DNA of 64,000 nucleotides from Bosea sp. ANAM02 (lineage in GTDB: Bacteria > Pseudomonadota > Alphaproteobacteria > Rhizobiales > Beijerinckiaceae), in assembly GCF_011764485.1 (NCBI RefSeq), contig NZ_AP022848.1, positions 2,508,001 to 2,572,000 on the forward strand, written 5' to 3'. The notes below the pieces were generated by a model. The model had not been told where the DNA came from. It searched no databases and saw only the letters and a list, made by a program, of their open reading frames with translations. Shown here piece by piece: positions 29,770-44,761 of the stretch. Both the position numbers and the translations under genes were made by a program. Every line of letters begins with the position of its first letter. The first letter of the stretch is position 1.

Positions 29770-29822
29770 GATCGGCTGAATCTCCCAGGCTTGCGAGGCC
29801 TGCGCATCTCGGCCGCCGATCT

Positions 29823-29860
29823 GTTCCGGATCAAGCCTGCATTGTTCCATTCGGAGGAAC
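29823..29860. promoter_or_regulatory. Tandem regulator dyads, site 1 (divergent M81 promoters)
   Basis: Dyad GTTCC-ATTCGGA-GGAAC is perfect at 29844-29860. A second, GTTCC-GGATCAA-GCCTG, is centred exactly 21 bp away at 29823-29839. On the plus strand the perfect dyad is followed after 9 nt by TTGACA (29870-29875) and 18 bp later TTTCAT. On the minus strand it is followed after 9 nt by TTGATC, inside the second dyad. The same layout recurs at 32727, 38471 and 44682. Confidence 0.7.
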
Positions 29861-29949
29861 GCGAGTGCTTTGACAGGCCGCGTCCCGTCCCGGTTTCATG
29901 GGCGTGCCGGCAGTCCGAAAGGGCGGCTGCCGCCCCTGACCGAGAGAGC

Positions 29950-31416
29950 ATGCGGATGCGCGTCTTCACTGCGTCGCTGGCGACGGAAACCAACACCTTC
30001 GCGCCGCTCTTCGTCGATCGCAGTGCTTTCGAGGGCGCCTTCTACTGTCCGCCCGGCACGCATCCGGACACGCCGACGCTGTGCTCGGCGCCGACCGTCG
30101 CGGCGCGCCGCCGCGCCGCCAGCGAGGGCTACGAGCTGGTCGAGGGCACCGCGACCTGGGCCGAACCGGCGGGGCTCGTCTCGCGGGAGGGCTATGAGAG
30201 CCTGCGCGACGAAATCCTCGATCAGCTCAAGGCGGCGCTGCCGGTTGATATCGTGCTGCTCGGCCTGCACGGCTCGATGGTGGCGCGCGGCTACGACGAT
30301 TGCGAAGGCGACCTGATCGCACGGGTAAGGGCGCTGGCCGGCCCGGATTGCGTCATCGGCGCCGAGCTCGACATGCATTGCCATCTGACGGCCGAGATGG
30401 TCGCGGGCGCCGATATCATCGTCGCCTTCAAGGAGTTCCCGCATACGGATTTCCTGGCGCGGGCCGAGGACCTGCTGGAGCTTTGCCTCAGGACCGCGCG
30501 CAAGCAGGTGAAGCCGGTCAGCGCCGTGTTCGATTGCCGCGGCCTCGCCGCCTTCATGACCAGCCGCGAGCCCGGCCGCGGCTTCGTCGACCGGCTGCTC
30601 GCGATGGAGGGACGAGACGGCATCCTCTCGATCTCGGTCGCGCATGGCTTCCAGGCGGCGGATGTCGCCGATGTCGGGACCAAGGTGCTGGTCATCGCTG
30701 ACGGCAACGCGGCGAAGGCGGCAGTGCTGGCGAAGGAACTGGGTCTCGAAATCCTGCGCTGGGGGCAGGGCGCCTCGCCGAAGCACTACAAGCCGGAAGA
30801 GGGGATCGCTGCGGCGCTGGAGCTGGCCAAGCCCGGCAAGCCGGTGGTGCTGGCCGATCGCTGGGACAATCCGGGCGGCGGCGTCGCCGGCGATTCCTCC
30901 GTGATGGTCGAGGCGCTATTGCGCCACCCGGATGTGCCGGCGGCGATCGGGGCCATGTGGGACCCTGTCGCGGTCAGCCTGTGCCGGGCAGCCGGTGTCG
31001 GCGCCGAGATTCCCTTGCGCTTCATCGGCAAGGCCGCGCCGTCCTCCGGGCGGCCGATCGATGCGGTGGTGACCGTCACGGCTACGACCGGGGACCTGCT
31101 GATCCCGTTCGCGCAGAGCTGGGTTTCGCTCGGGCCTGCCGCGGCGATCCGGATCGGCCGGCTCGACATCGTGCTGGCCTCGACGCGGGCGCAGACCTTC
31201 AGCCCGCCGGTCTTCACCGATCTCGGCATCGATCTCAGCGCCAAGAAGGTCGTGGTGGTGAAATCCTCCAACCATTTCCACGCCGCCTTCGCGCCGATCG
31301 CGGCACAGGTGCTTTATCTCGACAGCGGTGGACCCTATCCGCCCGATGCGAGCAAGATCCCCTATACCAAGGTGAAACGCCCCTTCTCTCCGCTGGACCC
31401 GAATCCATGGCTGTGA
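29950..31416 (+). CDS. M81 family metallopeptidase (MlrC-like), paralogue 2
   Basis: Second M81 protein of the island, 488 residues from the ATG at 29950; an ATG 6 nt later (MRVFTASLATETNTF) is equally possible. Landmarks: SLATETNTFAPLF, VDIVLLGLHGSMVA, GAELDMHCHLTAEM (the DxH motif), AFKEFPHTDF and VVLADRWDNPGGGVAGDSS. It differs strongly from paralogues 1 and 3. Its last 10 nt overlap the start of the DSD1-like gene, so the two proteins are made together. The promoter TTGACA-18-TTTCAT lies just downstream of the site 1 dyads. A cytoplasmic location is expected. Confidence 0.88.
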   Translation: MRMRVFTASLATETNTFAPLFVDRSAFEGAFYCPPGTHPDTPTLCSAPTVAARRRAASEGYELVEGTATWAEPAGLVSREGYESLRDEILDQLKAALPVDIVLLGLHGSMVARGYDDCEGDLIARVRALAGPDCVIGAELDMHCHLTAEMVAGADIIVAFKEFPHTDFLARAEDLLELCLRTARKQVKPVSAVFDCRGLAAFMTSREPGRGFVDRLLAMEGRDGILSISVAHGFQAADVADVGTKVLVIADGNAAKAAVLAKELGLEILRWGQGASPKHYKPEEGIAAALELAKPGKPVVLADRWDNPGGGVAGDSSVMVEALLRHPDVPAAIGAMWDPVAVSLCRAAGVGAEIPLRFIGKAAPSSGRPIDAVVTVTATTGDLLIPFAQSWVSLGPAAAIRIGRLDIVLASTRAQTFSPPVFTDLGIDLSAKKVVVVKSSNHFHAAFAPIAAQVLYLDSGGPYPPDASKIPYTKVKRPFSPLDPNPWL

Positions 31417-32711
31417 CTGCATCCGCCCCGCTGCCCCGCCTGTCGCTCGGCGAGATCGAGGAGCAGCGCCTCGATGTGCTGGTCAAGGGCCTGCCGCCGG
31501 GCGCATCGCTCCGGCTCGGCGATGTCGGCAAGCAGGGCTGGAATGTGCTCGCCGGCGATATGCCGATGCCGCTCGCGGTGATCCGCGAGAGCGTGCTCAA
31601 GGCCAACAGCGCCTGGATGAGTGCTTTCACCGGCGAAAACGGTCTCAAGATCGCGCCGCATGGCAAGACGACGATGGCGCCGCAGCTCTTCGACCTGCAG
31701 ATCGCCGATGGCGCCTGGGCGATCACCGTCGCGACGATGCAGCAATTGGCCGTCGCCCGGCATTTCGGGGTGAAGCGCGTCATCCTCGCCAACCAGCCGA
31801 TCGGGCGGCAGGAGGTCGCCGCCTGCTTCGAAGCGCTGCGGGAGCCCGGCTTCGAGCTCTACTGCCTTGCCGACAGCGTCGCCGGCGTCGGCTTGCTGGC
31901 GCAGGCCGCGAAGGGGCGTGAGGGCGCCAACCCGCTGCGGATCTTCGTCGAGATCGGCTTCATGGGCGGGCGCACCGGTGCGCGGACCCGCGAGGAGGCG
32001 CTAGCCGTGGCGCGTGCCGTCGCGGGCGCACCGGGCTTGCGGCTTTCCGGCTTCGAGTGTTTCGAGGGGCTGCACAGCGACACTGCCGGCGCCGATCGGC
32101 TGCTCGGCGAGGTCGTCGCGGTCGCGGCGGCGGCTGAGGGCGAAGGACTGCTCGGGCCGGAGCCGATGGTGCTCTCCGCCGGCGGGACCTCGCTGTTCGA
32201 CCGGGTCGGCGAGGCCTTCAATGCCGCCGCCTTCAAGCGGCCGATCGTCAAGGTGCTGCGCTCCGGCTGCTACCTGACTCATGATTCCACGGCCTATTCG
32301 GCAGCCTTCCGGCGGATCACGCTGGAGACCAGCCTCAGGCTGCCACCGGGCGGGCTGGAGCCGGCGCTGGAGGTCTGGGCCTATGTCCAGTCGCGGCCCG
32401 AGCGCGGACGCAGCCTGCTCACCGTGGGCAAGCGCGATATCTCGTTCGATTCCGGCATGCCGGTGCCGTTGCGCTGGTATCGGCCGGGCGGCGCGATGCA
32501 GCGGCCGGAGCCGATGCCGGCGGGCCATACGGTTCTGGGGCTCAACGACCAGCATTGCCATCTCGGCACGCCTGAAGAGAGCCCCTTGCAGGTTGGTGAC
32601 ATGGTCGCCTTCGGCATCGGCCACCCCTGCACGACCTTCGACAAATGGGCGGTGCTGATGCTGGTCGACGACGACTGGACCGTCACCGGCGCAATCCGGA
32701 CCTTCTTCTGA
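31407..32711 (+). CDS. DSD1-like PLP enzyme (D-serine dehydratase / D-threonine aldolase family)
   Basis: Pyridoxal-phosphate enzyme of 434 residues with an alanine-racemase-type barrel followed by the D-serine-dehydratase-like C-terminal domain. The PLP lysine is in IAPHGKTTMAP (Lys87). The zinc-ligand region typical of DSD1 is present as NDQHCHLGTP and FGIGHPCTTFDKW. Family members dehydrate or cleave D-hydroxy amino acids or deaminate D-amino acids to keto acids. The start overlaps the M81 paralogue 2 gene by 10 nt, which ties a peptidase to a D-amino-acid enzyme. The actual substrate cannot be told from sequence. Confidence 0.87.
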   Translation: MAVTASAPLPRLSLGEIEEQRLDVLVKGLPPGASLRLGDVGKQGWNVLAGDMPMPLAVIRESVLKANSAWMSAFTGENGLKIAPHGKTTMAPQLFDLQIADGAWAITVATMQQLAVARHFGVKRVILANQPIGRQEVAACFEALREPGFELYCLADSVAGVGLLAQAAKGREGANPLRIFVEIGFMGGRTGARTREEALAVARAVAGAPGLRLSGFECFEGLHSDTAGADRLLGEVVAVAAAAEGEGLLGPEPMVLSAGGTSLFDRVGEAFNAAAFKRPIVKVLRSGCYLTHDSTAYSAAFRRITLETSLRLPPGGLEPALEVWAYVQSRPERGRSLLTVGKRDISFDSGMPVPLRWYRPGGAMQRPEPMPAGHTVLGLNDQHCHLGTPEESPLQVGDMVAFGIGHPCTTFDKWAVLMLVDDDWTVTGAIRTFF

Positions 32712-32726
32712 CGCGCTTCCGAAGCT

Positions 32727-32781
32727 GTTCCTTCTGGTGAAACCTGTAATCCTTGACGTGAATTCGGGCCGTTCCTAGCCT
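32727..32781 (+). promoter_or_regulatory. Tandem dyads (site 2) and promoter of the first ABC operon
   Basis: GTTCC-TTCTGGT-GAAAC at 32727-32743 and AATCC-TTGACGT-GAATT at 32748-32764, centres 21 bp apart. The second dyad contains the -35 box TTGACG (32753-32758), followed by a 17-bp spacer and TAGCCT (32776-32781). The binding-protein gene starts at 32928. Confidence 0.7.
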
Positions 32782-32927
32782 GCATCTCACAGAGGGATGG
32801 CCCGCCATCCGCGATGCGGACGAGACGGGCTGAGCGGCGATGACGGGAAGCACGGCGAAGGCCGGTCCCTGCCTCGCGCGGAAGAGGCCGGGACCGGCCG
32901 GCAAGCAGGATGCTGGGAGGATCGTTC

Positions 32928-34526
32928 GTGACGACACCGTCATTCCCGATGATTGATGACTCCGATCTCGCCGCGCAGGGCTTGCATCGGCGCAGCCTCT
33001 TGCAACTGCTGAGCGCGGGCGGCGCGGCACTTGCGGTCCCAGGCCTGTGGAGCAACCTCGCCCAGGCGCAGACGCCGGTTGCCGGCGGCACGCTGACGAT
33101 CGGCGCCGATGCCGATCCAATCGGGCTCGATCCGGTCACGGTCAACGCCTTCTCGTCCTTCGATTTCACCAGCCTGCTCTATAGCGGCCTGCTGCGCTGG
33201 AACGCCCAGATGAAGTTCGAGCCCGATCTGGCGACGGGCTTCGAGCAGCCCGATCCGAAGACCTATGTCTTCAAGCTCAGGCAGGGCGTGAAATTCCACA
33301 ACGGCAAGGATTTCTCCGCCGCGGACGTCAAGCACACTTTCGACCGGATCATGAACCCGACGACGGGCAGCCGGCTCAGGTCGCTCTATTCCAGCGTCGA
33401 GTCGGTGACGGCGGTCGATTCTTTCACGGTGAAATTCCAGCTCAAAGCCACCGACGCGGCCTTCCTCAGCAATCTCGCCAGCAACCCGAACGGCGCGATC
33501 GTGCCGGCCGGCGTCGAGAACCTCGTGACACAGCCGGTCGGCACAGGACCGTTCGCCTTCGAGGCCTATCAGCCGAACCAGCAATTCTCGCTGACGCGCT
33601 TCGACGGCTATTACGAGAAGGGTGAGCCCTATCTCGCGAAGGTGATCTTCAAGTTCTACAAGGACCAGGCGACGCTGACCTCTGCGCTGCGCTCGCGCGC
33701 CATCGACATGACCTGGGTGAAGGACCCGAAGGTCGCGACCGCAATCTCGCGGGCGTCGTCGAATTTCGTCTCGGCGCCGGGCCAGACCTCGCGGACCTTC
33801 CCGATCTGGCTGAACATGAAGGCCAAGCCCCTGAACGACGTGAAGGTGCGTCGCGCGCTCAGCCTCGCGACAGACCGCAAGGCCTGCCTAGACACCGTGC
33901 TCGGCGGCGCCGGCAAGGTCGGCGCGATGATCCCGGAAAGCCAGGTCGGCGGCTATGACGGCACGGGCGAATTGCCGTACTACAAGCATGACCCGGCAGC
34001 GGCGAAGGCGCTGCTGGCCGAGGCCGGCTATCCGAATGGGATCGATCTCGGGGACTATATCGTCGTCGCGGCCAATCCGCTCGACGTCGCCTGCGCGCAG
34101 ATCCTGCAGCAGCAATGGCAGGCGGCCGGCATCACCGTGAAGCTGGTGCCCATGGAAACCGCGCCGCTCCTGGCCAAATGGGCCAGCGGCGACTGGCCGA
34201 CGCTGCTCTCGGTCGCGTTGTCCTGGACGCCTGATCCGGACGGCATCTTCCAGTACATCACCTCGACCAGCGGCTACGGCAAGGCGATGGGCTCGAACGA
34301 TCCCGAGCTCGACAAGATGATCGCCGAGGCGCGGGCCGAGCTCGACGTGCCCAAGCGTGCGGCCAAGAACCAGGCGATCCAGAAGCGCATCGCCGAGAAC
34401 GCCTATGTCATCCAGATCTACCAGTACCCGCTGCGCTGGGAGATCTGGTGGAACCATGTCCAGGGCTATGTGCCGCTCGCCGCGAATATCCGCTCCTTCG
34501 TGCGTACGACATGGCTGAAGAAATAA
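32928..34526 (+). CDS. Peptide-type ABC transporter substrate-binding protein 1
   Basis: Periplasmic SBP_bac_5 (DppA/OppA cluster C) protein of 532 residues. The GTG at 32928 is chosen because GGAGG lies 7 nt upstream; an ATG at 32910 is in frame but overlaps that site. The N-terminus holds a Tat-type signal with HRRSLLQLLSAGGAALAV and cleavage near LAQAQTP. The mature part shows GGTLTIGADADPIGLDP, the VKFHNGKDFSAADVKHTFDR signature and SWTPDPDGIFQYI near the C-terminus. It heads an operon with two permeases and two ATPases, controlled by site 2. The ligand is likely a short peptide or peptide-like compound. Confidence 0.9.
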   Translation: MTTPSFPMIDDSDLAAQGLHRRSLLQLLSAGGAALAVPGLWSNLAQAQTPVAGGTLTIGADADPIGLDPVTVNAFSSFDFTSLLYSGLLRWNAQMKFEPDLATGFEQPDPKTYVFKLRQGVKFHNGKDFSAADVKHTFDRIMNPTTGSRLRSLYSSVESVTAVDSFTVKFQLKATDAAFLSNLASNPNGAIVPAGVENLVTQPVGTGPFAFEAYQPNQQFSLTRFDGYYEKGEPYLAKVIFKFYKDQATLTSALRSRAIDMTWVKDPKVATAISRASSNFVSAPGQTSRTFPIWLNMKAKPLNDVKVRRALSLATDRKACLDTVLGGAGKVGAMIPESQVGGYDGTGELPYYKHDPAAAKALLAEAGYPNGIDLGDYIVVAANPLDVACAQILQQQWQAAGITVKLVPMETAPLLAKWASGDWPTLLSVALSWTPDPDGIFQYITSTSGYGKAMGSNDPELDKMIAEARAELDVPKRAAKNQAIQKRIAENAYVIQIYQYPLRWEIWWNHVQGYVPLAANIRSFVRTTWLKK

Positions 34527-34545
34527 GAGCTCGTCCAGATAAACG

Positions 34546-34666
34546 AGCCCTCATCCTGAGGAGCCGCGCAGCGGCGTCTCGAAGGATGCTTCAATTGGTT
34601 CCGGAACCTCCTGGAACATCCTTCGAGACGCCATGCCTGAGGGCATGGCTCCTCAGGATGAGGGCT
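34546..34666. repeat. Family A palindromic repeat, copy 5, inside the ABC operon
   Basis: Full-length copy with outer arms AGCCCTCATCCTGAGGAGC and GCTCCTCAGGATGAGGGCT, lying between the binding-protein gene and its first permease. As a large RNA hairpin it could protect or stop the upstream message and so give more binding protein than permease. Confidence 0.88.
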
Positions 34667-34725
34667 CGCGGGGTTCTCGGGCGGTTTTCACAATTGGCCG
34701 GCCGCCTCCCGGCGGAGGCCTGCCG

Positions 34726-35667
34726 ATGACGCGTTTCGTCCTCGGGCGTCTCGCCTGGATGGCCGCGATCCTGCTCGGCGTTTCCTTCGTCGCCTTCATG
34801 CTGATGCGGGCCATTCCCGGCGATTTCGCCATCGCGGCGGCGGGCTCGCAGAGCGTGGCGCCGGAGGTTCTGGCGACGATCCGCCGGGACCTCGGCCTCG
34901 ACCAGCCGCTGATGACGCAATATCTGCTCTGGCTCGGGTCTGCGCTGACCGGCGATTTCGGCAAGTCCTTCGTCACCCGCCAGCCGGTGCTCGGCGAATT
35001 GCTCAATCGGCTCGCCGTCACAGTCCAGCTCACATCGCTCGCCGCGGTCATCGCCGCGGTGATGGGCGTCGCCTCGGGGCTCGCGGCGGCGCGTCTGCGC
35101 GGCGCGACCGACTGGCTGGTCCGGCTCTGGAACGGGCTGATGCTGGCGGTGCCGAACTATGTCGTGGCGACGCTGATCGTGCTGCTCTTCGGGCTCTATT
35201 TCCCGGAGATCACGGTGCTCGGCTACACGCCCTTTCTCAAGAACCCGCTCGGCAATCTCGCCAGCCTGCTGCTGCCCGCCTTCGCATTGGCGCTCGCGGT
35301 CTCCGTGACGATCGCGGAGAACACGCGCGCCGCCGTGCTTGAGGTCGCCAACCAGGATTTCGTCATGGTCGCCCGCGCCAAGGGCCTGACGCCGGCCGCG
35401 ATCCTGCGCGACTACCTGATGCGCAATGCGCTGACGCCGGTGATCACTGCCGCCGGCCTCAAGATCGCGGCGCTGCTCGGCGGCAGCATCCTGGTCGAGA
35501 CCATCTTCGCCATTCCCGGCATGGGCCAGTACCTGTTCGATTCCATCAACAGCCGCGACTATCCAGTGATCCAGGCGATCGTGCTGGTCGCGGCCGGCAT
35601 CGTCGTGCTGGTCAATACGGCGATCGACATCGCCTATGCCCGCGTCGATGCACGGGTGCAGATGTGA
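34726..35667 (+). CDS. Peptide-type ABC transporter permease 1 (DppB-like)
   Basis: Inner-membrane permease of 313 residues with six helices. GGCGGAGG at 34711-34718 sets the start at the ATG of MTRFVLGRLAWM; in-frame codons further up run through the repeat. The N-terminal membrane segment (MAAILLGVSFVAFMLMRAIPGD) with the RAIPGD motif and the EAA-type loop (VARAKGLTPAAILRDYLMRN) are typical of DppB. Its stop overlaps the next gene as GTGA, so the two permeases are coupled. Confidence 0.92.
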   Translation: MTRFVLGRLAWMAAILLGVSFVAFMLMRAIPGDFAIAAAGSQSVAPEVLATIRRDLGLDQPLMTQYLLWLGSALTGDFGKSFVTRQPVLGELLNRLAVTVQLTSLAAVIAAVMGVASGLAAARLRGATDWLVRLWNGLMLAVPNYVVATLIVLLFGLYFPEITVLGYTPFLKNPLGNLASLLLPAFALALAVSVTIAENTRAAVLEVANQDFVMVARAKGLTPAAILRDYLMRNALTPVITAAGLKIAALLGGSILVETIFAIPGMGQYLFDSINSRDYPVIQAIVLVAAGIVVLVNTAIDIAYARVDARVQM

Positions 35668-36530
35668 GCGGGACCATTCAGGACAGTGCGCCGGCCGCGA
35701 CGGTGCGGAAGGGGGCAGGGATCACGCAGGGCTGGCTGCTGCTCGGGCTGGGACTTGCCATGCTGGCGGCAATGCTGGTGCTGACGATCTTCGCGCCGCT
35801 TATCGCGCCTTACAGTCCCTCGGCCACGTCGCCGGACTCGCTGGCCCCCGCCAGTGCAGCCCATTGGCTCGGCACCGATTCGATCGGACGCGACGTGCTG
35901 AGCCGCCTGATCGTCGGCGGGCGCACGACGCTGCTCATCACGGTCTCGGCCGTGTTGATCGCGCTGGTGGCCGGGCTGATCCTCGGGCTCGCGGCCGGCT
36001 ACATGGGCGGGCGCACCGACGAGGTCATCATGCGGCTGCTCGATGTCGTCTTCGCCTTCCCGGTTCTGCTGCTCGCGATCGCGGTGGTGGCTGCGCTGGG
36101 GCCGACCGTGCCGAACCTGATCCTGACCATCGCCATCGTCTACACGCCGGCCATGGCGCGGGTGGTCAGGGCGCCGGTGCTCAGCGTCAAGCAATGGGAC
36201 CATGTCGAGGCTGCCCGCAGCGTCGGCATGAGCGAGATGCGGCTCGTGCTGCGCCATATCCTGCCGATCGTGGTCTCGCCGATCCTCGTCGCGACGAGCC
36301 TAACGCTGTCCCAGACGATCTTCACGGTGACGGCGCTGTCCTTCCTGGGCTTAGGCCCGCCGCCGCCCGATCCGAACTGGGGCGGCATGCTCTCGGAAGC
36401 GCGCCAGTTCATGGAGCTTGCGCCCTTGACCGTGGTCGGCCCGGCCCTGGCGATCGTCTTCGCGACGCTGACCTTCATCATCATCGCCAACGGCTTGCGT
36501 GAAGTGCTCGATGTGGGGAGCGTGCGATGA
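35664..36530 (+). CDS. Peptide-type ABC transporter permease 2 (DppC-like)
   Basis: Second permease, 288 residues, starting with the GTG inside the GTGA overlap with permease 1. DppC features: a cytoplasmic lead, first helix LLLGLGLAMLAAMLVLTIFAP, HWLGTDSIGRDVLSRLIVGG, and the EAA loop VEAARSVGMSEMRLVLRHIL. The last helix ends in LREVLDVGSVR, overlapping the ATPase gene by 4 nt. Confidence 0.92.
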   Translation: MSGTIQDSAPAATVRKGAGITQGWLLLGLGLAMLAAMLVLTIFAPLIAPYSPSATSPDSLAPASAAHWLGTDSIGRDVLSRLIVGGRTTLLITVSAVLIALVAGLILGLAAGYMGGRTDEVIMRLLDVVFAFPVLLLAIAVVAALGPTVPNLILTIAIVYTPAMARVVRAPVLSVKQWDHVEAARSVGMSEMRLVLRHILPIVVSPILVATSLTLSQTIFTVTALSFLGLGPPPPDPNWGGMLSEARQFMELAPLTVVGPALAIVFATLTFIIIANGLREVLDVGSVR

Positions 36531-37339
36531 CCGGCCCGCTGCTCAGGGTGCGTGACCTCACCGCGACCGTGACCACCCGCCGTGAGGTGATCCAGGCGGT
36601 GCGCGGCATCTCCTTCGATATCAATGCCGATGAGGCGGTCGGTTTCGTCGGGGAATCCGGTTGCGGCAAGAGTGTAACCGCCAAGGCGTTGATGCGATTG
36701 GCGCCTGATGGCGCCTCGATCGGGCTTGGCGGCTCCATCGCTTTCTGGGGGCAGGACCTGCTCGGGCTCGGCGAGGAAGAGATGCGCGACCTGCGCGGCC
36801 GACGCATCGCCATGGTGTTCCAGGACCCGATGACCTCGCTCAACCCGGTGATGAGCATCGGCGCGCAGATGGGCGACATGCTGCGCCGCCATTTCGGCAT
36901 TTCAGTAAAGGAGGCGCGTGAGCGTAGCGTCGAACTGCTCGACCTCGTCGGCATTCCCGATCCCGCGCGGCGGATCGACGACTTCCCGCACCAGTTCTCG
37001 GGCGGGCAGCGCCAGCGCGTGCTGATTGCCATCGCGATCTCCTGCGAGCCGGACCTGCTGATCGCCGACGAGCCGACGACGGCGCTCGACGTCACCGTGC
37101 AGGCGCAGATCCTGCGGCTGCTGCTGCGGCTTCGGGAGGAGCGCGGCATGGGGCTGATGCTGATCACCCATGATTTCGGCGTCGTCGCCGGCATGGTCGA
37201 CCGGGTGAACGTGATGTATGGCGGCGAAATCGTCGAGGCCGGGCCGGTCGACGATGTCTTCGCCCGGCCGCAGCATGCGTATACGCGGGCGCTGCTCGAT
37301 GCCGTGCCGCGCCTGCAAGGAGCGGGGGCGCTGCGATGA
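36527..37339 (+). CDS. Peptide-type ABC transporter ATPase 1 (DppD-like, short)
   Basis: Nucleotide-binding subunit of 270 residues. Walker A GESGCGKSV, Q-loop FQDPMTSLNPVM, signature FSGGQRQRV, Walker B LLIADEPTTALD and the H-loop LITHDFGVV are all intact. It is about 50 residues shorter than the usual DppD because the C-terminal oligopeptide region after ALLDAVPRL, including the Cys-rich part, is missing. It overlaps both neighbours by 4 nt and pairs with ATPase 2. Confidence 0.93.
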   Translation: MTGPLLRVRDLTATVTTRREVIQAVRGISFDINADEAVGFVGESGCGKSVTAKALMRLAPDGASIGLGGSIAFWGQDLLGLGEEEMRDLRGRRIAMVFQDPMTSLNPVMSIGAQMGDMLRRHFGISVKEARERSVELLDLVGIPDPARRIDDFPHQFSGGQRQRVLIAIAISCEPDLLIADEPTTALDVTVQAQILRLLLRLREERGMGLMLITHDFGVVAGMVDRVNVMYGGEIVEAGPVDDVFARPQHAYTRALLDAVPRLQGAGALR

Positions 37340-38298
37340 CGGAGCCGCTGCTTCAGGTCCGCGATCTCTCGGTGCTGTTTCCGGCGCGGCGCGGCGCGCC
37401 GCCGGTCAAGGCGGTGGAGCGCCTCTCCTTCGATATCGCGCCGGGGCAGACGCTCGGGCTCGTCGGCCAGTCCGGCTCGGGCAAGACCACGGCGGGGCGC
37501 GCCATCCTCCAGCTTCAGAAGGCGAGCGGAGGTTCGGTCCGCCTGCTCGGGCAGGAACTGACGAGGATGCGTTCGGGCGAGTTGCGCCGGATGCGCCGGC
37601 ATATGCAGTTCGTGCTGCAGAACCCCTATTCCAGCCTGCATCCGCGCATGACGATCGGGCAGATCCTGAGCGAGCCCTTGCAGGTGCATCGCACGGTGCC
37701 GGGCAACCGCATCCGCGAACGCGTCGAAGAGCTGCTGGAGTTGGTCAATCTCGATCCCGCGATGATCCGGCGCTACCCGCACGAGTTCTCGGGCGGGCAG
37801 CGCCAGCGCGTCGTCATCGCAAGGGCGCTCGCGGTCAACCCCGATTTCGTCGTCTGCGACGAACCGGTCTCGGCGCTCGACGTGCGGACACAGGCGCAGA
37901 TCGTCGCGCTGCTGCAATCGCTGCAGGAGAAACTCGGCCTGTCCTATCTCTTCATCGCGCATGACCTCGCGATCGTCCGCGAGATGGCGCATCGCGTCGC
38001 GGTGATGTTCCGCGGGCGCATCGTCGAGATGGGTAGCGCGGGCCAAGTCTATGACAGCCCGGCACACCCCTACACGCAACTCCTGCTGGATGCCGTGCCG
38101 GTGCCCGACCCCGTGCTGCAGCGCGAGCGGCTCCGGCGCCCGCCACCGGACCTGCGCTTCCTCGATGGCGATGGCGGCGGGTGCGTCCATGGTGCCGATC
38201 ACGCGCGGGCGGTAACGCCCGAATGGCACGAGGTCGCGCCGGGCCATGGCGTGTCCTGCCGCTACTGGCCGAAAGGAGCGGGACGGGAGGCGGCGTGA
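37336..38298 (+). CDS. Peptide-type ABC transporter ATPase 2 (DppF-like)
   Basis: Second nucleotide-binding subunit, 320 residues. Walker A GQSGSGKTTAG, Q-loop LQNPYSSLHPRM, signature FSGGQRQRV, Walker B FVVCDEPVSALD, H-loop FIAHDLAIV. The C-terminus keeps a peptide-transporter extension up to VSCRYWPKGAGREAA, with single Cys residues but no clear 4Fe-4S cluster set. It ends the first ABC operon. Because the second binding-protein operon has permeases but no ATPase, this pair may also drive that transporter. Confidence 0.93.
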   Translation: MTEPLLQVRDLSVLFPARRGAPPVKAVERLSFDIAPGQTLGLVGQSGSGKTTAGRAILQLQKASGGSVRLLGQELTRMRSGELRRMRRHMQFVLQNPYSSLHPRMTIGQILSEPLQVHRTVPGNRIRERVEELLELVNLDPAMIRRYPHEFSGGQRQRVVIARALAVNPDFVVCDEPVSALDVRTQAQIVALLQSLQEKLGLSYLFIAHDLAIVREMAHRVAVMFRGRIVEMGSAGQVYDSPAHPYTQLLLDAVPVPDPVLQRERLRRPPPDLRFLDGDGGGCVHGADHARAVTPEWHEVAPGHGVSCRYWPKGAGREAA

Positions 38299-38338
38299 GC
38301 GGCCGCTTGAAATGCAAGCTCTTAATCTTATCGCGCGG

Positions 38339-38442
38339 TCATCCCGGACGGAGCGAAGCGAAGATCTGGGATCCATTCCTGAGCATTTCCGATCAAGGTT
38401 CCGGCATGGATCCCGGGTCTCCCTTCGGTCGCCCGGGATGAC
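38339..38442. repeat. Family D palindromic repeat, copy 2
   Basis: GTCATCCCGGACGGAGCGAAGC...TGGGATCCATTCCTGAGC, then GGCATGGATCCCGGGTCTCC...CGCCCGGGATGAC. It lies between the first ABC operon and the site 3 dyads. Confidence 0.7.
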
Positions 38443-38470
38443 ATGGTTCCTTTCGGGGGAGGTCGAGGAT

Positions 38471-38526
38471 GTTCCTTAGGGCGGAACATTCAATCCTTGA
38501 CGCGAAATATCTGGCGCAACTACGCT
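38471..38526 (+). promoter_or_regulatory. Tandem dyads (site 3) and promoter of the M81-3 operon
   Basis: GTTCC-TTAGGGC-GGAAC at 38471-38487 (perfect arms) and AATCC-TTGACGC-GAAAT at 38492-38508, centres 21 bp apart. The second dyad holds the -35 box TTGACG (38497-38502); 18 bp later comes TACGCT (38521-38526). The stretch AATCCTTGACG followed by GAA is shared with site 2. Confidence 0.7.
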
Positions 38527-38638
38527 TTTGGTGACGAGGCCGGGCTGAAGAACGGATCCGGCAAGATATCCTGAAGTCCGAGTTACCGCTTCGCCCGGCA
38601 TCGGCCGGCCGGCGGAACCGCAATCCGGGAGGATGGCC

Positions 38639-40147
38639 GTGCGTCTGGCGCTGATCCACATCGTTCAGGAAACGAACGACTTCAATCCGCTGCTGACGAC
38701 GCTCGCGGATTTCGAGGCGTTCGGCCTCGTCGAGGGCGAGGAGATCGCCCGGCAATTCGGCGAGATCGGCCAGATCGGCGGGCATTACGCGGCGGTGAAG
38801 GAAAGCGGGCTCGCGATCGAGACGATCCCGATCATCCGCGCCTGGGCCGTGGCGGGCGGGCGCATCTCGCGTGAGGCCTTCGATTTCTTCCAGGCGAAGA
38901 TCCGGGCCGGGCTGGAGACGGTGGGACCGATCGACGGGCTCGTCCTGCATCTGCACGGCGCCTGCGCGGCCGAGGGCATCGACGATGTCGAGGGCGAGCA
39001 GGCCGAGCTTTGCCGCGAGATTCTGGGGCCGGACGTGCCGATCCTGCTCGGGCTCGATCACCACGCCAATATCACGCACAAGATCATGGCCAATTGCACG
39101 ACGATCGTCGGCCATCGCACCCAGCCACATGACGTGTTCGATACGGGCAAGGTCGGCACCGAGGTGCTGCTGCGCATCCTCACCGAGAAGTGCAAGCCGG
39201 TGATGGCCTGGCGGAAGATCCCGCTGCTCTCGCATCAGGAGCAGTTCCTAACCTCGAAGGGGCCGATGAAGCTCTGGTTCGACCGGGCCCGCGCGATCGA
39301 GGCCGACCGGCGCGTGCTACAGGCTTCGAACTACCCGATGCAGCCCTGGCTCGATGTGGCCGAGGGCGGCTGGTCGACGATCGTGGTCACCGATGGCGAC
39401 CGGTTGCTGGCCGAGAAGCTGGCGGACGAGCTCGCCGATCTCGCCTGGTCTATGCGCGACGATTTCCAGGTGCGCGAGGCGGTTTCCATCGACGACGCCG
39501 TGCGCAAGGCCGATGCGGCCGAGCGTGGCATGATCGTGATCAGCGATACCGGCGACACCGTCTTCGGCGGCGCGGCCGGGGACAGCAACCTGCTGCTGGA
39601 AGCGATGCTGCGGCTCGGCATCAGGAGCAAGGCGCTGATCCCGCTGATCTCGCCCAAGGCCGTCGCGACGCTGACCGCGGCGGGCGAGGGCGCCGAGGTG
39701 ACGCTCCCGCTCGGGGGCGACGCGGCCACCGCCTTCTTCAAGCCGCTGACGGTGACGGGCAAGGTCCGCAAGCTCGGCGGCGGGTCGATCCCGCTCAGGT
39801 TCAACCATCAGCCGGAGGTCGATATGGGCCGGGTCGCGGTCTTCGATGTCGGGCCGGTGACGCTGCTGATCTCGGAACTGCGCGGCGTCGCGGGCAACGT
39901 GCCCGATGTCTACGAGGCCTTCGGCATCGACCTCTCCGACTACAAGATGGCGGTACTCAAGACGGCTTCGAACTTCCAGTATTTCGACCGCATCGCCTCC
40001 GGGCTCGTCCGTGCCGATACGCGCGGGCCGGGGCAGTCGGACGTATTCACCCTGCCGTGGCAGCGGATTCCGCGCCCGGTCTATCCGTTGGAGACAATAA
40101 GCGACTGGCGGGCGCATTCGTCCCAGCCGGGAGCGGGGAAAAGCTGA
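38639..40147 (+). CDS. M81 family metallopeptidase (MlrC-like), paralogue 3
   Basis: Third M81 protein, 502 residues. GGGAGG at 38627-38632 lies 6 nt before the GTG at 38639, which I prefer; an ATG at 38633 abuts that site and would add two residues. Landmarks: HIVQETNDFNPLL, GLVLHLHGACAAEG, ILLGLDHHANITHKI (metal-binding motif), GHRTQPHDVFDTG and VFGGAAGDSNLLLEAML. The protein is likely cytoplasmic. It heads an operon with a binding protein and two permeases, so imported substrate is probably processed by it. The exact bond cleaved is unknown. Confidence 0.88.
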   Translation: MRLALIHIVQETNDFNPLLTTLADFEAFGLVEGEEIARQFGEIGQIGGHYAAVKESGLAIETIPIIRAWAVAGGRISREAFDFFQAKIRAGLETVGPIDGLVLHLHGACAAEGIDDVEGEQAELCREILGPDVPILLGLDHHANITHKIMANCTTIVGHRTQPHDVFDTGKVGTEVLLRILTEKCKPVMAWRKIPLLSHQEQFLTSKGPMKLWFDRARAIEADRRVLQASNYPMQPWLDVAEGGWSTIVVTDGDRLLAEKLADELADLAWSMRDDFQVREAVSIDDAVRKADAAERGMIVISDTGDTVFGGAAGDSNLLLEAMLRLGIRSKALIPLISPKAVATLTAAGEGAEVTLPLGGDAATAFFKPLTVTGKVRKLGGGSIPLRFNHQPEVDMGRVAVFDVGPVTLLISELRGVAGNVPDVYEAFGIDLSDYKMAVLKTASNFQYFDRIASGLVRADTRGPGQSDVFTLPWQRIPRPVYPLETISDWRAHSSQPGAGKS

Positions 40148-40177
40148 GACGAAACCAACACAACAAGAGGGAAAGCG

Positions 40178-41716
40178 ATGACAAAGCTGTCGCGACGTCA
40201 ATTCGGCATGGCCGGCCTTGCGCTGGCGGGCGTGTCCCTGGCGGGGGCCTTGCCGGCCTCGGCCCAGCAGCTCAAGGGCGGGAGGCTGCGCGTCGCCGTG
40301 CTGAGCGAGCTGGCGAACTACGATCCGCAGCAGCTCTCGACGGTGAATTTCCACGTCATCAAGAACCTCTATGACAGCCTGATCGAGTACACGCCGGAGG
40401 GGAAGCCGGAGCCGAGCCTGGCGACGGAGTGGAAGATCGCGCCCGACAAGACCTCGGTGACGCTGAAGCTGCGCAGCGGCGTGACCTTCCATAGTGGTAC
40501 GCCGTTCAAGGCGGATTCCGTCCTGGCGACCCTGCAGAAGGGCGCCGATCCCAAGCGCGGCAAGAACGTCTTCGCGACCATGTCGATCGTCAAGGACTGG
40601 TCGGCGCCTGACGATTCCACGGTGACGATCAATTTCAAGGCGCCGGTGCCCGAGCGTCAGATGCTCGATCTCCTGCAGTTCCTGATCCCGATCGATCCCA
40701 AGGGAATCGACACGGTCGAGACCGTGCCGGCGGGCACCGGCCCCTTCACGCTGGTCAACCGGGCGGTGGGGCAGAGCCTGACGCTCAAGGCCAACCCGAA
40801 ATACTGGCGCGACAAGCAGCCGATCGTGCAAGATCTCGTCTTCACGGTGTTCAGCGAGGACGCCTCGGCCAGCGCCGCGCTGGAATCGGGCGCGGTAGAC
40901 ATCGTCTATAACGGCTCCTCGCGCAGCGCGGTCCGGCTCAAGAATGCCGGGTTCCAGGTCTTCGCCGGGCCGGGGCCACTGGTGCAGGTCTTCCGCATCA
41001 ACTCGACGCGCGGACCCTTCCGCAACAAGGCGTTCCGGCAGGCCTTCAACCATCTGATGGACCGGGCGAGCATCCTGCGGGTCGGCTATGCCGGCATGGG
41101 CAAGGTCGTGGCGCTGCCCTGGGCGCCGGCGAGCCCCGCCTATGACGAGAGCTACAATGCGACCTATGCCTATGATCTCGACAAGGCCAAGAAGCTGATC
41201 GCGGATTCCGGCCTTTCCGCCGACGAGACCAAGAACTGGAAGCTGCTGGTCAACGGCAGCGACGAATCCTCCGTCGCGATCAGCCAGATCGTGCAGGGCT
41301 CGCTGCAGAAGATCGGCATCCCCGTCGAGCTCGACATGCGGCAGGGCGCGGAATACGTCACCGCGCTGCTCGGCGGCGATTTCGCAGCGACCTTCGGTGC
41401 CGTCGGCAACGTCCAGAAATTCCCCTCGCGCGTCGCCACCAACTCGATCTACCGCACCTCGGGCAACCCCGTCCTGAAGGACCCGCATCCGCATCCCGAC
41501 TATGTCGCAGCCATCGCCAGGGTCGATGCCACGTCCGGCGGGGCGGCCGAGGTCAAGGCGGCCTATGACAACCTCAACAAGGTGCTGGTCGCGGAGGCCT
41601 TCGGCATCCCCACCAATTCCTACGATGTCGGCCTGATCGTCGCCTCGGACAAGATCGGCGGCGTGACGCTCGATATCGACAATCTCTTCGTCGCCCGCAC
41701 CATCGGCTTCAAATGA
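40178..41716 (+). CDS. Peptide-type ABC transporter substrate-binding protein 2
   Basis: Second SBP_bac_5 protein, 512 residues, with a Tat signal (KLSRRQFGMAGLALAGVSLA, cleaved near ASAQQ). GAGGGAAAG precedes the ATG. The mature protein shows GGRLRVAVLSELANYDPQQL, LRSGVTFHSGTPFKADSV and VPAGTGPFTLVNRAVG. It is only distantly related to binding protein 1. Its operon (M81-3, binding protein, DppC-like, DppB-like) contains no ATPase. Confidence 0.9.
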   Translation: MTKLSRRQFGMAGLALAGVSLAGALPASAQQLKGGRLRVAVLSELANYDPQQLSTVNFHVIKNLYDSLIEYTPEGKPEPSLATEWKIAPDKTSVTLKLRSGVTFHSGTPFKADSVLATLQKGADPKRGKNVFATMSIVKDWSAPDDSTVTINFKAPVPERQMLDLLQFLIPIDPKGIDTVETVPAGTGPFTLVNRAVGQSLTLKANPKYWRDKQPIVQDLVFTVFSEDASASAALESGAVDIVYNGSSRSAVRLKNAGFQVFAGPGPLVQVFRINSTRGPFRNKAFRQAFNHLMDRASILRVGYAGMGKVVALPWAPASPAYDESYNATYAYDLDKAKKLIADSGLSADETKNWKLLVNGSDESSVAISQIVQGSLQKIGIPVELDMRQGAEYVTALLGGDFAATFGAVGNVQKFPSRVATNSIYRTSGNPVLKDPHPHPDYVAAIARVDATSGGAAEVKAAYDNLNKVLVAEAFGIPTNSYDVGLIVASDKIGGVTLDIDNLFVARTIGFK

Positions 41717-41759
41717 CGCGGCCTGACGGCGCCGGGCGGCGCGAGCGCGGCGCCCGGCG

Positions 41760-42638
41760 ATGACGGAGACATTTGCCCAGGTCAAAGGGTTGCTGCGTCG
41801 GCTGCTGGCCCGGCGGGGCGCGGCCCTGGGGCTCGGCTTTCTTGTGCTGGTCGCGCTCGCCGCGGCCTTCGCCGATCTGCTGCCCTTTGACCCTTTGCGG
41901 CAGAACGTGGCGGACTCGCTCCTGCCTCCATCCGCCGAATACTGGTTCGGCACGGACGAGCTCGGCCGCGACATCCTGGCGCGCGTCATCCATGGCGCGC
42001 GGACCTCGCTGCTGACGGCGGCCGGCGCGGTCGTGATCGCGGCGCTCATCGGCGTGCCGATCGGACTTGCCGCCGGCTTCTATGGCGACTGGCGCGATTC
42101 CCTGCTGATGCGTTGCATCGATGTGCTCTTGGCGCTGCCGAACATCCTGTTCGCGATGGCGCTGATCGCGGTTCTCGGCCGCAGCCAGGGGGCGGCGCTG
42201 ATCGCGGTCGGCATCGCCGGCATACCCGGGTTCGCCCGCATCGCGCGGGCGCAGGTCATGGCCTTGCGCCAGCTCGATTTCGTCACGGCGGTGCGCGGCT
42301 TCGGCGGCAGCCCCGGCTACATCATGTTCCGGACGATCCTGCCCAACGCCTTGAGCCCGCTGGTGGTTCAGGCGATCGTGCTGGCCTCGATCGCGATCCT
42401 GCTGGAAGCGGCGCTCGCCTTCCTCGGGGTCGGCGTGCCGCCGCCGACGCCGAGCTGGGGCGAGATGCTGCGTACCGGCAAATCCTATCTCTACGAGGCG
42501 CCGACCTATGCGGTGCTGCCCGGCATCGTGCTGACGCTGACGATCCTCTCGCTCGACACGATCGGCCGGGCGCTGACCGCGATCCTCGACCGCGACGAGA
42601 GCGAGGCGGGCGGCGAGCCGATCGGGGGGCGGCGATGA
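41760..42638 (+). CDS. Peptide-type ABC transporter permease 3 (DppC-like)
   Basis: Permease of 292 residues, DppC type: cytoplasmic N-terminus, first helix AALGLGFLVLVALAAAFADL, YWFGTDELGRDILARVIHGA, then the EAA loop VTAVRGFGGSPGYIMFRTIL. The order here is DppC before DppB, the reverse of the first operon. The stop codon overlaps the next start (ATGA). Confidence 0.92.
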   Translation: MTETFAQVKGLLRRLLARRGAALGLGFLVLVALAAAFADLLPFDPLRQNVADSLLPPSAEYWFGTDELGRDILARVIHGARTSLLTAAGAVVIAALIGVPIGLAAGFYGDWRDSLLMRCIDVLLALPNILFAMALIAVLGRSQGAALIAVGIAGIPGFARIARAQVMALRQLDFVTAVRGFGGSPGYIMFRTILPNALSPLVVQAIVLASIAILLEAALAFLGVGVPPPTPSWGEMLRTGKSYLYEAPTYAVLPGIVLTLTILSLDTIGRALTAILDRDESEAGGEPIGGRR

Positions 42639-43582
42639 CGGGATATGTCCTGCGCCGCCTGTTTCAGATGCTGCCGGTGCTGCTGCTCGCCTCCTTCGCG
42701 ATCTTCGCGATGATCTATGCCGTGCCGGGCGGGCCGGTCGCGGTGATCGTTGGCGAGAATGCCGGGCCTGAGGAGATCGCGGCCGCGATCCAGCGCTACG
42801 GGCTCGACCGCCCGATGGTGGTGCAATATGCCGACTGGCTCGGGCGGGCGGCGACGGGCGATTTCGGGCTCTCGCTGCATAGTCGCCAGCCGGTGCTGCA
42901 ACTGATCGGCGAGCGCCTGCCGGCGACGCTGCAACTGGCGCTCGCCGCGATCTTCGTCGCGCTCGTCATCGGCATTCCCGTTGCGATCGCGAGCGCGGTC
43001 AAGCCGAATTCCTGGCTCGACCGGTTGCTCAGCGGCTGGAGCGCGCTGGCGCTGGGCGTGCCGACCTTCTGGCTCGGTATCCTCCTGATCCTGCTCTTCG
43101 CCGTGGAACTGCGCTGGCTGCCATCGGCCTCGCGCCATGTGCCATTCTGGGAGTCGCCTTTAGACACGCTGCGCAGTCTCGCGCTGCCGGCGATCACGCT
43201 CGGCACCTATGTCTCCGGCATCCTGGCGCGCTTCCTGCGGGCCTCGCTGATCGGTGAGGCGCGGGCCGACTATGTCCGCACCGCCCGCGCCAAGGGCGTC
43301 CCGGAGAACCGGATCGTCGGCTTCCACATCATGCGCAACGCGCTTCTGCCCTTCGTCACCATCGTCGGTTTGATGATGGCGAATTTCATCGGCGGGGCCG
43401 TGGTGACGGAGGCGGTCTTCACCTATCCGGGGCTCGGGCGCCTGCTGATCCAGGCGATCAGCACCCGCGACTACCCGCTGATTCAGGGCTGCATCCTGGT
43501 GATCCTGGTCGCCTATATGCTGATCAACCTCACGGTCGACATGCTCTATGCCTGGATCGACCCGCGGATCGAATACCGATGA
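42635..43582 (+). CDS. Peptide-type ABC transporter permease 4 (DppB-like)
   Basis: Permease of 315 residues, DppB type, starting with the ATG in the ATGA overlap with permease 3. The N-terminus MTGYVLRRLFQMLPVLLLAS leads to the YAVPGGP motif. TARAKGVPENRIVGFHIMRN is the EAA loop, and VVTEAVFTYPGLGRLLIQAI lies near the C-terminus. It is the last gene of the second operon; a repeat-filled gap separates it from the convergent iclR-type gene. Confidence 0.92.
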   Translation: MTGYVLRRLFQMLPVLLLASFAIFAMIYAVPGGPVAVIVGENAGPEEIAAAIQRYGLDRPMVVQYADWLGRAATGDFGLSLHSRQPVLQLIGERLPATLQLALAAIFVALVIGIPVAIASAVKPNSWLDRLLSGWSALALGVPTFWLGILLILLFAVELRWLPSASRHVPFWESPLDTLRSLALPAITLGTYVSGILARFLRASLIGEARADYVRTARAKGVPENRIVGFHIMRNALLPFVTIVGLMMANFIGGAVVTEAVFTYPGLGRLLIQAISTRDYPLIQGCILVILVAYMLINLTVDMLYAWIDPRIEYR

Positions 43583-43684
43583 TTGCCGCTCTCGAGGATG
43601 CGCGCGTTTGTCGAAACGGTTCTCGACGGAACCTCCGCCGTCATTCCGGGGCGGTCCGCAGGATCGAGCCCGGAACCCATATTC

Positions 43685-43777
43685 CGTCATGGTCGGGCTT
43701 GTCCCGACCATCCACGTCTTCATGGGTCGAGCGCTGTGTTCAAGACGTGGATGCTCGCCACAAGGGCGAGCATGACG
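43685..43777. repeat. Family B palindromic repeat, copy 3
   Basis: CGTCATGGTCGGGCTTGTCC...CCATCCACGTCTTC, then CAAGACGTGGATGCTCGCCA...GCGAGCATGACGG. A fragment resembling a family D half (TCATTCCGGGG...CCCGGAAC) precedes it at about 43640. Together they fill the 254-bp gap between the permease and iclR-type genes. Confidence 0.78.
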
Positions 43778-43836
43778 GAACCGGGGCGGCGACGGTGGCG
43801 GATGGGAAGGCCGGTCTGACCAAGCCTCCATGCGTT

Positions 43837-44628
43837 TCAGCGCAGGTCCGCGGTCGGGCGCGAGCCGAGATGGGTCGAGATGCCGGCCGCGACCTCGCGC
43901 AGGCGCGTCCCGACCTTGGCCGCCAGCGAGTGCGGCATCCGCATCAGCGGCGCGGAGACGCTGAGCGCCGCGACGGGATAGCCGTCATCGTCGAGGATCG
44001 GCACGCCGACGCACATGGCGCCGTCCTCGTTCTCGCCCATCTCGGTGGCGTAGCCGGTACGGGCGACCTGCCGGAGCTGCCGCTCGATCTCCTCGCGCTC
44101 GAGCAGGGTGCGGCCGGTGCGCTCGGTCAGCGGCAGGTCGAGCTGCCTTTGCCGCTCCGCATCCGGCAGGAAGGCGAGGATCGCCTTGCCGAGCGCGGTC
44201 GAATGCATCGGGTGGCTCTCGCCGATGCGGGCCTGCATCCTGAGCGAGCGATTGGCCTCGATAAGGTCGATATAGACGACGGTGCCGTTGCCCTTGACCG
44301 CGAGATTGACGGTCTCGTTGAACTCCTGCATCAGCTCGATCATGGCTGGGCGGGCGAGCTCGCGGACCTTGCTGACGCTGGCATCGGCGCGGGCGATGGC
44401 GCGCAATTGCGGCCCGATATTGTAGCGGTCGGTCGCGCGGTTGTGGTCGAGGAAACCGGCGGCGGTCAGCGTCTGGAGATAGCGGAAGGTCGTCGTCTTC
44501 GGGATCTTGAGCTCCTTGCTGACGGCGGTGAGCGCGATCTCATGGCCGTGGCGGGCGACCAGCTCCAGCACCTTCAGCGCCTTCATCACCGGCTGCACGA
44601 CATAGGGGTTGTCGGTTGTCCTGGACAT
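43837..44628 (-). CDS. IclR-family transcriptional regulator of the island
   Basis: Regulator of 263 residues with an N-terminal winged helix-turn-helix (KALKVLELVARHGHEIALTA, SKELKIPKTTTFRYLQTL) and a C-terminal IclR effector domain (MQARIGESHPMHSTALGKAI, GYATEMGENEDGAMCVGVPI). The start at 44628 (MSRTTDNPYVVQPV) is the usual one; the frame is open 252 nt further upstream but overlaps the divergent promoter region. It is transcribed divergently from the class III aminotransferase. Paired dyads in that gap recur at the other island promoters, making this protein the leading candidate for the island regulator. The effector is unknown. Confidence 0.9.
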   Translation of the reverse strand: MSRTTDNPYVVQPVMKALKVLELVARHGHEIALTAVSKELKIPKTTTFRYLQTLTAAGFLDHNRATDRYNIGPQLRAIARADASVSKVRELARPAMIELMQEFNETVNLAVKGNGTVVYIDLIEANRSLRMQARIGESHPMHSTALGKAILAFLPDAERQRQLDLPLTERTGRTLLEREEIERQLRQVARTGYATEMGENEDGAMCVGVPILDDDGYPVAALSVSAPLMRMPHSLAAKVGTRLREVAAGISTHLGSRPTADLR

Positions 44629-44681
44629 GGCGGCTCCGGTGGTCGCGCTCGTTCGACCGCCAGCATGGCCAACCCCTAATA

Positions 44682-44719
44682 ATTCCGCAAGGCGAAACCC
44701 CTGTTCCTTTACGCGGAGT
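44682..44719. promoter_or_regulatory. Tandem dyads, site 4 (iclR-type gene / aminotransferase intergenic region)
   Basis: ATTCC-GCAAGGC-GAAAC at 44682-44698 and GTTCC-TTTACGC-GGAGT at 44703-44719, centres 21 bp apart. The second dyad holds a -35-like TTTACG (44708-44713) for the plus-strand gene; the -10 is weak (TCTGGT, 17 bp on). The pair lies 54-91 bp before the regulator's own start, consistent with autoregulation. Confidence 0.65.
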
Positions 44720-44761
44720 GGGCGCTCTGGTCTGGTCGGGACAACAGCAGGAGGCAACGCA

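Follow-up and report, generated by a model that had tools for sequence, protein, structure and literature searches.

In Bosea and some of its relatives, an IclR-family regulator (M) appears to switch a block of genes for peptide uptake and breakdown through a common two-part promoter site. The block occupies positions 28285-46078 of the window, by which we mean the whole 64-kb stretch studied here (G000:C1:2508001-2572000, from the 5.65 Mb genome of Bosea sp. ANAM02; Bosea sp. 47.2.35 is the nearest row in a two-protein tree, 98% identical). Its 14 genes comprise the M81 peptidases A, B and I, together with C, D-H, J-L, M and N (Table 1). It is highly probable that A, B-C, D-H, I-L and N form the regulon of M, and we consider tandem cooperative occupancy of the two units of a site to be likely. 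That the net effect would be repression rather than activation is held with less assurance, and we place the probability of the combined reading, in which M would control the whole island as one regulon by tandem, repressing occupancy, at about 0.6.

A fixed promoter layout at four sites

The common unit consists of a strong dyad, RTTYC-N7-GRAAC, followed after 9 nt by a -35 hexamer that lies within a weaker dyad. Oriented copies are found at 29844-29875 (+), 29829-29860 (-), 32727-32758, 38471-38502 and 44682-44713, with the -35 hexamers TTGACA, TTGATC, TTGACG, TTGACG and TTTACG, respectively. The four sites thus give five oriented promoters, since at the divergent M81 site (site 1) the layout is present on both strands around one perfect dyad. 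The centre of the strong dyad lies 18 bp ahead of the -35 hexamer in all five, and in four of them a weaker, asymmetric unit enclosing the -35 is located 21 bp beyond the strong dyad. The first dyads of sites 1-3 have exact GTTYC-N7-GRAAC arms; that of site 4 begins with A.

The initial annotation had described paired GTTCC-N7-GGAAC-like dyads exactly 21 bp apart at these sites. All eight centres sit at the positions it claimed, the spacing of 21 nt is found at four out of four sites, and high-scoring pairs at this spacing are more numerous than in shuffles. It had also correctly placed the two hexamers of site 1, each 9 nt from the perfect dyad, and the AATCCTTGACG-N-GAA string that sites 2 and 3 have in common. 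The second dyads centred at 29831, 32756 and 38500 are weak on their own (5-6/10), and the second unit is well matched (8/10) only at site 4.

The best three pairs at 21-bp spacing in the window are those of sites 1, 3 and 4, each with a summed arm score of 16/20. The site 2 pair sums to 14 and is one of five window pairs at that score. Dinucleotide shuffles contain a mean of 0.02 pairs reaching 16, with none of 200 containing three, and each of the other spacings from 10 to 44 yields either no such pair or one. Single dyads are not enriched, with 29 at two or fewer mismatches in the window compared to 23.95 expected, and 10 perfect copies genome-wide compared to 12 for the reversed pattern. 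Hence, a lone dyad proves nothing.

Table 1. Dyads, promoter elements and genes of the island, in window positions; arm matches are to GTTCC-N7-GGAAC, out of 10.
Feature	Positions	Strand	Remarks
Site 1 strong dyad GTTCCATTCGGAGGAAC	29844..29860	.	centre 29852, 10/10 arms; common to divergent genes A and B
Site 1 weak second dyad, A-ward	29823..29839	-	centre 29831, 6/10; TTGATC at 29829-29834; GGAAC arm intact on - strand
Gene B -35, TTGACA	29870..29875	+	9 nt past the strong dyad of site 1
Site 2 strong dyad GTTCCTTCTGGTGAAAC	32727..32743	+	centre 32735, 9/10; recovered by held-out model, E 2.3e-8 genome-wide
Site 2 second dyad	32748..32764	+	centre 32756, 5/10; contains -35 TTGACG at 32753-32758
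Site 3 strong dyad GTTCCTTAGGGCGGAAC	38471..38487	+	centre 38479, 10/10; kept in 17/17 loci; five arm pairs complementary in 18/18 rows
Site 3 second dyad	38492..38508	+	centre 38500, 6/10; contains -35 TTGACG at 38497-38502
Site 4 first dyad ATTCCGCAAGGCGAAAC	44682..44698	.	centre 44690, 8/10; between IclR gene (-) and aminotransferase gene (+); 17/17 loci and 5 further genomes
Site 4 second dyad	44703..44719	+	centre 44711, 8/10; contains -35 TTTACG at 44708-44713
Gene A, M81 (MlrC-like) metallopeptidase	28285..29769	-	PF07364 and PF07171; likely promoter site 1 (-)
Gene B, M81 metallopeptidase nearest MlrC	29950..31416	+	388.6 bits; likely promoter site 1 (+)
Gene C, DSD1-type (presumed label) pyridoxal phosphate (PLP) enzyme	31407..32711	+	PF14031, PF01168; overlaps B
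Gene D, peptide/nickel-type ATP-binding cassette (ABC) substrate-binding protein	32910..34526	+	heads D-H; likely promoter site 2
Genes E-H, two permeases and two ATPases of the D-H transporter	34726..38298	+	
Gene I, third M81 metallopeptidase	38633..40147	+	heads I-L; likely promoter site 3
Genes J-L, second ABC transporter, binding protein J and two permeases	40178..43582	+	
Gene M, IclR-family regulator, 263 aa	43837..44628	-	likely binder of the sites
Gene N, class III aminotransferase	44762..46078	+	PF00202; likely promoter site 4

Genome-wide specificity

The motif is confined to its target genes genome-wide and co-occurs with the regulator. Searching the whole genome with the oriented pattern at up to two mismatches gave 35 matches (5 exact, 0 with one and 30 with two mismatches), compared to 54 for the reversed control, and all exact matches lie in the island. 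The pattern was written from the five island sites themselves, so that their own presence is by construction; the absence of the pattern elsewhere is not. Scatter of the paired dyads across unrelated genes had been named as grounds for abandoning the proposal, and no oriented match with zero or one mismatch occurs outside the island.

Models built from relatives also recover the sites. A model derived from 39 copies of sites 3 and 4 in relatives returned site 4 at 43.4 bits and site 3 at 38.7 bits, and found the held-out site 2 at 36.0 bits, with the next genome-wide match at 12.9 bits (150 of 1637 first-look candidates were scored). When weight matrices were made from the relatives' sites with one site left out each time, the five oriented sites ranked first to fifth among 127,926 window positions in 4/4 trials. 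Site 1, when it was the one omitted, scored 17.2 and 4.4 in its two directions, and the next position 1.6. For site 1, the assignment is based on the fixed-distance pattern, on conservation and on the weight matrix.

Co-occurrence with the regulator

Among 28 genomes, the exact pattern was found in 24/24 with the regulator and in 0/4 same-genus genomes without it. Of the 101 exact matches in the 24 genomes, 96 are on regulon contigs beside regulon genes and 5 are elsewhere, while the reversed control gave 7 matches across all 28. The genes beside the matches were read directly for the window, for L001-L017 with their D and B loci, and for G055, G122, G148 and G156; for G015, G087 and G112 they were deduced from where the regulator and B lie. 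A genome was counted as lacking the regulator if no match at E 1e-70 was present among its 15-17 scored candidates. These four genomes also have no close B ortholog, the best match being remote (33-36% identity). At the level of the family (149 genomes), the motif is present in 8/8 genomes with the regulator compared to 26/141 without, and the 28 matches in the latter are near the control level (21 for the reversed pattern, by our own count).

The sites also accompany their genes when the island is split. In G156 the D-H operon is unlinked and lies on a separate contig, where it retains an intact site 2. In G055, sites occur on both of the contigs concerned, the first with the regulator and the aminotransferase, the second with A, B, C and I-L; match positions in G015, G087 and G112 agree with such an arrangement. 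G122, whose regulator is 52% identical, has sites upstream of J and, when the match is relaxed, also ahead of N.

Conservation in relatives

Both site 3 and site 4 are kept in 17/17 loci from Bosea and further Rhizobiales, and site 4 also in 5 more genomes. Site 2 is kept upstream of 11/11 D orthologs of close identity (78-96%); two remote D homologs (34-36% identity) showed no such site. At site 1, the exact B-ward spacing is found in 21/23 loci encoding B; of the exceptions, L048 is one base shorter, bringing the -35 nearer by 1, and G122 is without the layout. The A-ward layout is exact in just 12/23 loci. G148 is without an exact site 3, and gene I directly follows B in that genome. Hence, the loss of dyads in islands that keep the regulator, a further objection raised by the initial annotation, is confined to these exceptions.

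Among pattern-passing rows, information per column is highest in the strong-dyad arms (1.79-1.93 bits) and reaches 1.28-1.88 in the second unit, compared to 0.72-1.00 in the linker and 0.69-1.38 in the spacer. These rows were chosen by a pattern demanding arms and -35, with identical rows counted once, and the column conservation is therefore partly by construction. The pattern hides the losses at site 1 (L048 and L061 in the + direction, 11/23 loci in the - direction); all loci examined for site 3 (17), site 2 (11) and site 4 (22) passed it.

Arm changes at site 3 are paired. A C-G to T-A change occurs in 5/18 rows, never in a single arm, and requires at least 2 changes on the tree. When sites 2 and 3 are aligned jointly, 96.0% of cells are paired, a count reached by 0/500 shuffles, with four of the five pairs invariant. 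The count of pairs changed on both sides was equalled by 474/500 shuffles.

The regulator and its link to the sites

M is a member of the IclR family, with both the helix-turn-helix (HTH) domain (PF09339, 49.6 bits, 3.4e-13) and the IclR_C effector domain (PF01614, 134.9 bits, 2.8e-39) over cut-off. Its top NCBIfam match is BhcR (NF045644) at 174.5 bits, and identity with this equivalog was rejected because the score is under the cut-off of 350. The segment PKTT-FRYLQTL, which we take for the recognition helix of M, is kept in the three further regulators read, down to 52% identity, and differs in the seven paralogs.

The genome encodes 8 IclR_C proteins. The IclR-family gene at C1:482837 has a single perfect dyad, GTTCCAAAAAATGGAAC, just upstream of its likely start (G000:C1:482575-482591, L123), where the oriented -35 layout is not matched; the remaining six paralogs have no like dyad in the upstream stretch read. 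Since such a dyad also precedes another IclR gene, the arm sequence by itself is not enough to identify the binder, and the assignment of the sites to M rests on linkage and co-occurrence.

It had been proposed that the island's own IclR protein controls all four sites, its own gene included. Specificity, conservation and co-occurrence argue for the control of the sites by M, while autoregulation of M is weakly supported. The site 4 dyad centre is 62 bp upstream of the IclR start, and the IclR-ward -35-like hexamer is kept in the closest relatives only and has a low weight-matrix score. An IclR-ward copy of the layout was not upheld.

Proposed mode of action and alternatives

Judged from the predicted -10 boxes, the strong dyad would be centred near -53 and the second unit near -32, and dimers 21 bp apart would lie on the same helix side. 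We propose that one IclR dimer would sit on the strong dyad, with a second dimer held via tetramer contacts on the same DNA face, over the -35. RNA polymerase would then be blocked at A, B-C, D-H, I-L and N when no inducer is present. The tetramer may be loosened by an inducer, most likely one of the substrates or products of the encoded peptide or amide pathway, so that the promoters open together. At site 1, the single central dyad could serve both directions. Near-consensus TTGAC -35 boxes are found at three of the five promoters, and repression is favoured because the second unit covers two of these (sites 2 and 3).

Several observations weigh against this proposal. The predicted -10 boxes, 17-18 bp past the -35, are weak overall (2-4/6), with 3-4/6 matches to TATAAT at sites 1 (+), 2, 3 and 4 and 2/6 at site 1 (-). 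The symmetry of the second dyad is poor (5-6/10) at three of the four sites, and in the B-ward direction of site 1 this dyad is essentially absent, with just the -35 position kept. The spacer fits the published RYW3RY consensus poorly (4/7 bases at sites 1, 2 and 3) except at site 4 (6/7). The model from sites 3 and 4 misses site 1, an unfiltered window search giving a 4.1-bit fragment at most, and G122 is without site 1 yet keeps the regulator. The fourth arm pair is complementary in 18/18 rows at site 3, compared to 5/12 at site 2, 12/22 at site 1 and 0/23 at site 4, an unevenness that is in line with the published Y/R degeneracy. For sites 2 and 3 aligned jointly, sliding by -1 lifts the covariation score (0.199 vs 0.130). 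BhcR is moreover reported as an activator (PMC11323563).

The last point bears on the sign of control, and activation is kept open because BhcR is the top family match of M. The same regulon could be run with M as an activator, or in a dual role (self-repressing and target-activating), with ligand-bound dimers contacting sigma factor or RNA polymerase. We regard this as a real possibility of lesser weight. BhcR is described in the same source as an IclR-type activator with a proposed dual role, and has a putative palindrome upstream of its -35 (PMC11323563). The strong dyad of the island lies at a constant distance from the -35 and entirely upstream of it, the weak -10 boxes would suit activation, and conservation of the -35 layout does not extend to the IclR gene. 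Near-consensus -35 hexamers, as at sites 1 (+), 2 and 3, are unusual for activator-dependent promoters and speak against activation, and at sites 2 and 3 the second unit covers them. The analogy is further weakened by the BhcR score, which is half of the curated cut-off, so that M does not count as BhcR.

It is improbable that a different regulator, such as one of the genome's seven further IclR proteins, uses the dyads as its operators and that M is a mere neighbour. The number of IclR_C proteins, and the perfect dyad upstream of the one at C1:482837, would be compatible with a different binder. However, the presence of the motif in 8/8 family genomes with the regulator, its frequency being near control in those without, and the putative recognition helix, which is kept in the further regulators read and differs in the paralogs, both point to M. 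More improbable still is a shared sigma-70 promoter sequence combined with chance dyads and no common regulator. TTGAC is indeed shared between sites, and the -35 box accounts for part of the conservation. However, the arms of the strong dyad lie outside the -35 and are kept at a fixed distance in 17/17 and 11/11 loci, the arm changes at site 3 are paired, the layout is reached in 0/200 shuffles, and 96/101 exact matches in 24 genomes are beside regulon genes. Chance and plain promoter similarity were thus rejected on the basis of shuffles, weight matrices and column conservation.

Returning to control by M through tandem, repressing occupancy, a more detailed functional picture can be offered, which we consider tentative. 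One IclR protein would set a fixed promoter code (strong dyad, 9 nt, -35 in a half-dyad) on five promoters, two of them back to back around one central dyad. The catabolic regulon so governed would be a previously undescribed one, whose two peptide-type ABC importers, three MlrC-type M81 peptidases, DSD1 PLP enzyme and aminotransferase might together import and degrade a peptide or amide containing unusual (D- or beta-) amino acids.

Relation to known systems

The IclR group 1 motif GTT-11-AAC is given as GTTYCRYW3RYGRAAC, and tandem IclR sites as 18-22 nt apart, mainly 19-21, for 94 orthologous groups, an arrangement related to tetrameric binding (Suvorova and Gelfand 2021, PMC8222616). The island shares the GTTYC...GRAAC arms, the 7-base spacer and, at 21 nt, the tandem spacing, and its regulon therefore follows a known IclR kind of control. 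It differs in the second site, which is asymmetric and has the -35 built into it at a constant distance, and in that the spacer consensus fits well at site 4 only. The main text of PMC8222616 names neither MlrC nor COG5476, and no regulon with this target set was found in the titles, abstract openings and passages searched.

Like BhcR of Paracoccus denitrificans, M is encoded divergently from a target, with a putative palindrome upstream of the -35 (PMC11323563). Gene C matches BhcC weakly, at 71.2 bits (cut-off 690). The targets in the island are, unlike those of BhcR, M81 peptidases and peptide ABC transporters.

Gene B matches the MlrC microcystinase (7ylq) along its length (E 3.6e-112). 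Genes A, B and I all carry M81 Pfam domains, and their scores to NF041767 (B 388.6, I 119.7 and A 95.9 bits) are under the curated exception cut-off of 999, so that identity as MlrC microcystinase was rejected for each. M also matches TtgV (2xrn, 2xro), of the same IclR family, over residues 11-217 (E 1.2e-19), and of these entries we take 2xro to be the TtgV-DNA complex. The title of a TtgV operator-complex paper, as given in the reference list of PMC8222616, names cooperative tetramer binding.

As regulation, the island fits published IclR rules and breaks no new ground. For M81/MlrC-like peptidases, it supplies a defined regulon, reporter promoters ready for use and a candidate regulator, and the inducing substrate can therefore be sought directly. 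The fixed, repeated geometry furthermore offers five natural promoters that can be compared for the action of an IclR tetramer at the -35.

Further features of the island and its relatives

Genes E and H were assigned by family scan, while the names of F, G, K and L come from their sequence alone; the DSD1 label of gene C is presumed. The D-H transporter operon (window 32727-38298) is missing between C and I in 7/17 loci. Six of these seven genomes have no D homolog at E 1e-60, and the seventh (G156) has D-H on another contig, operator included. The intergenic stretches 38330-38450 and 43620-43790 have, by eye, the look of dispersed repeats, around CCCGGGTCTCCCTTCGGTCGCCCGGG and GTCGGGCTTGTCCCGACCATCCACGTCTT.

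In the A/B divergent promoter of G122 (L110 8742-9080), ATTCTACA-like repeats (ATTCTACAATATAGAAT) replace the IclR layout, which perhaps reflects a change of regulator. In genus g15, represented by G055 (L108 8308-8345), a further site is located upstream of a different ABC transporter that adjoins the regulator and has a binding protein ~26% identical to J. Hence, the regulon may have another target there.

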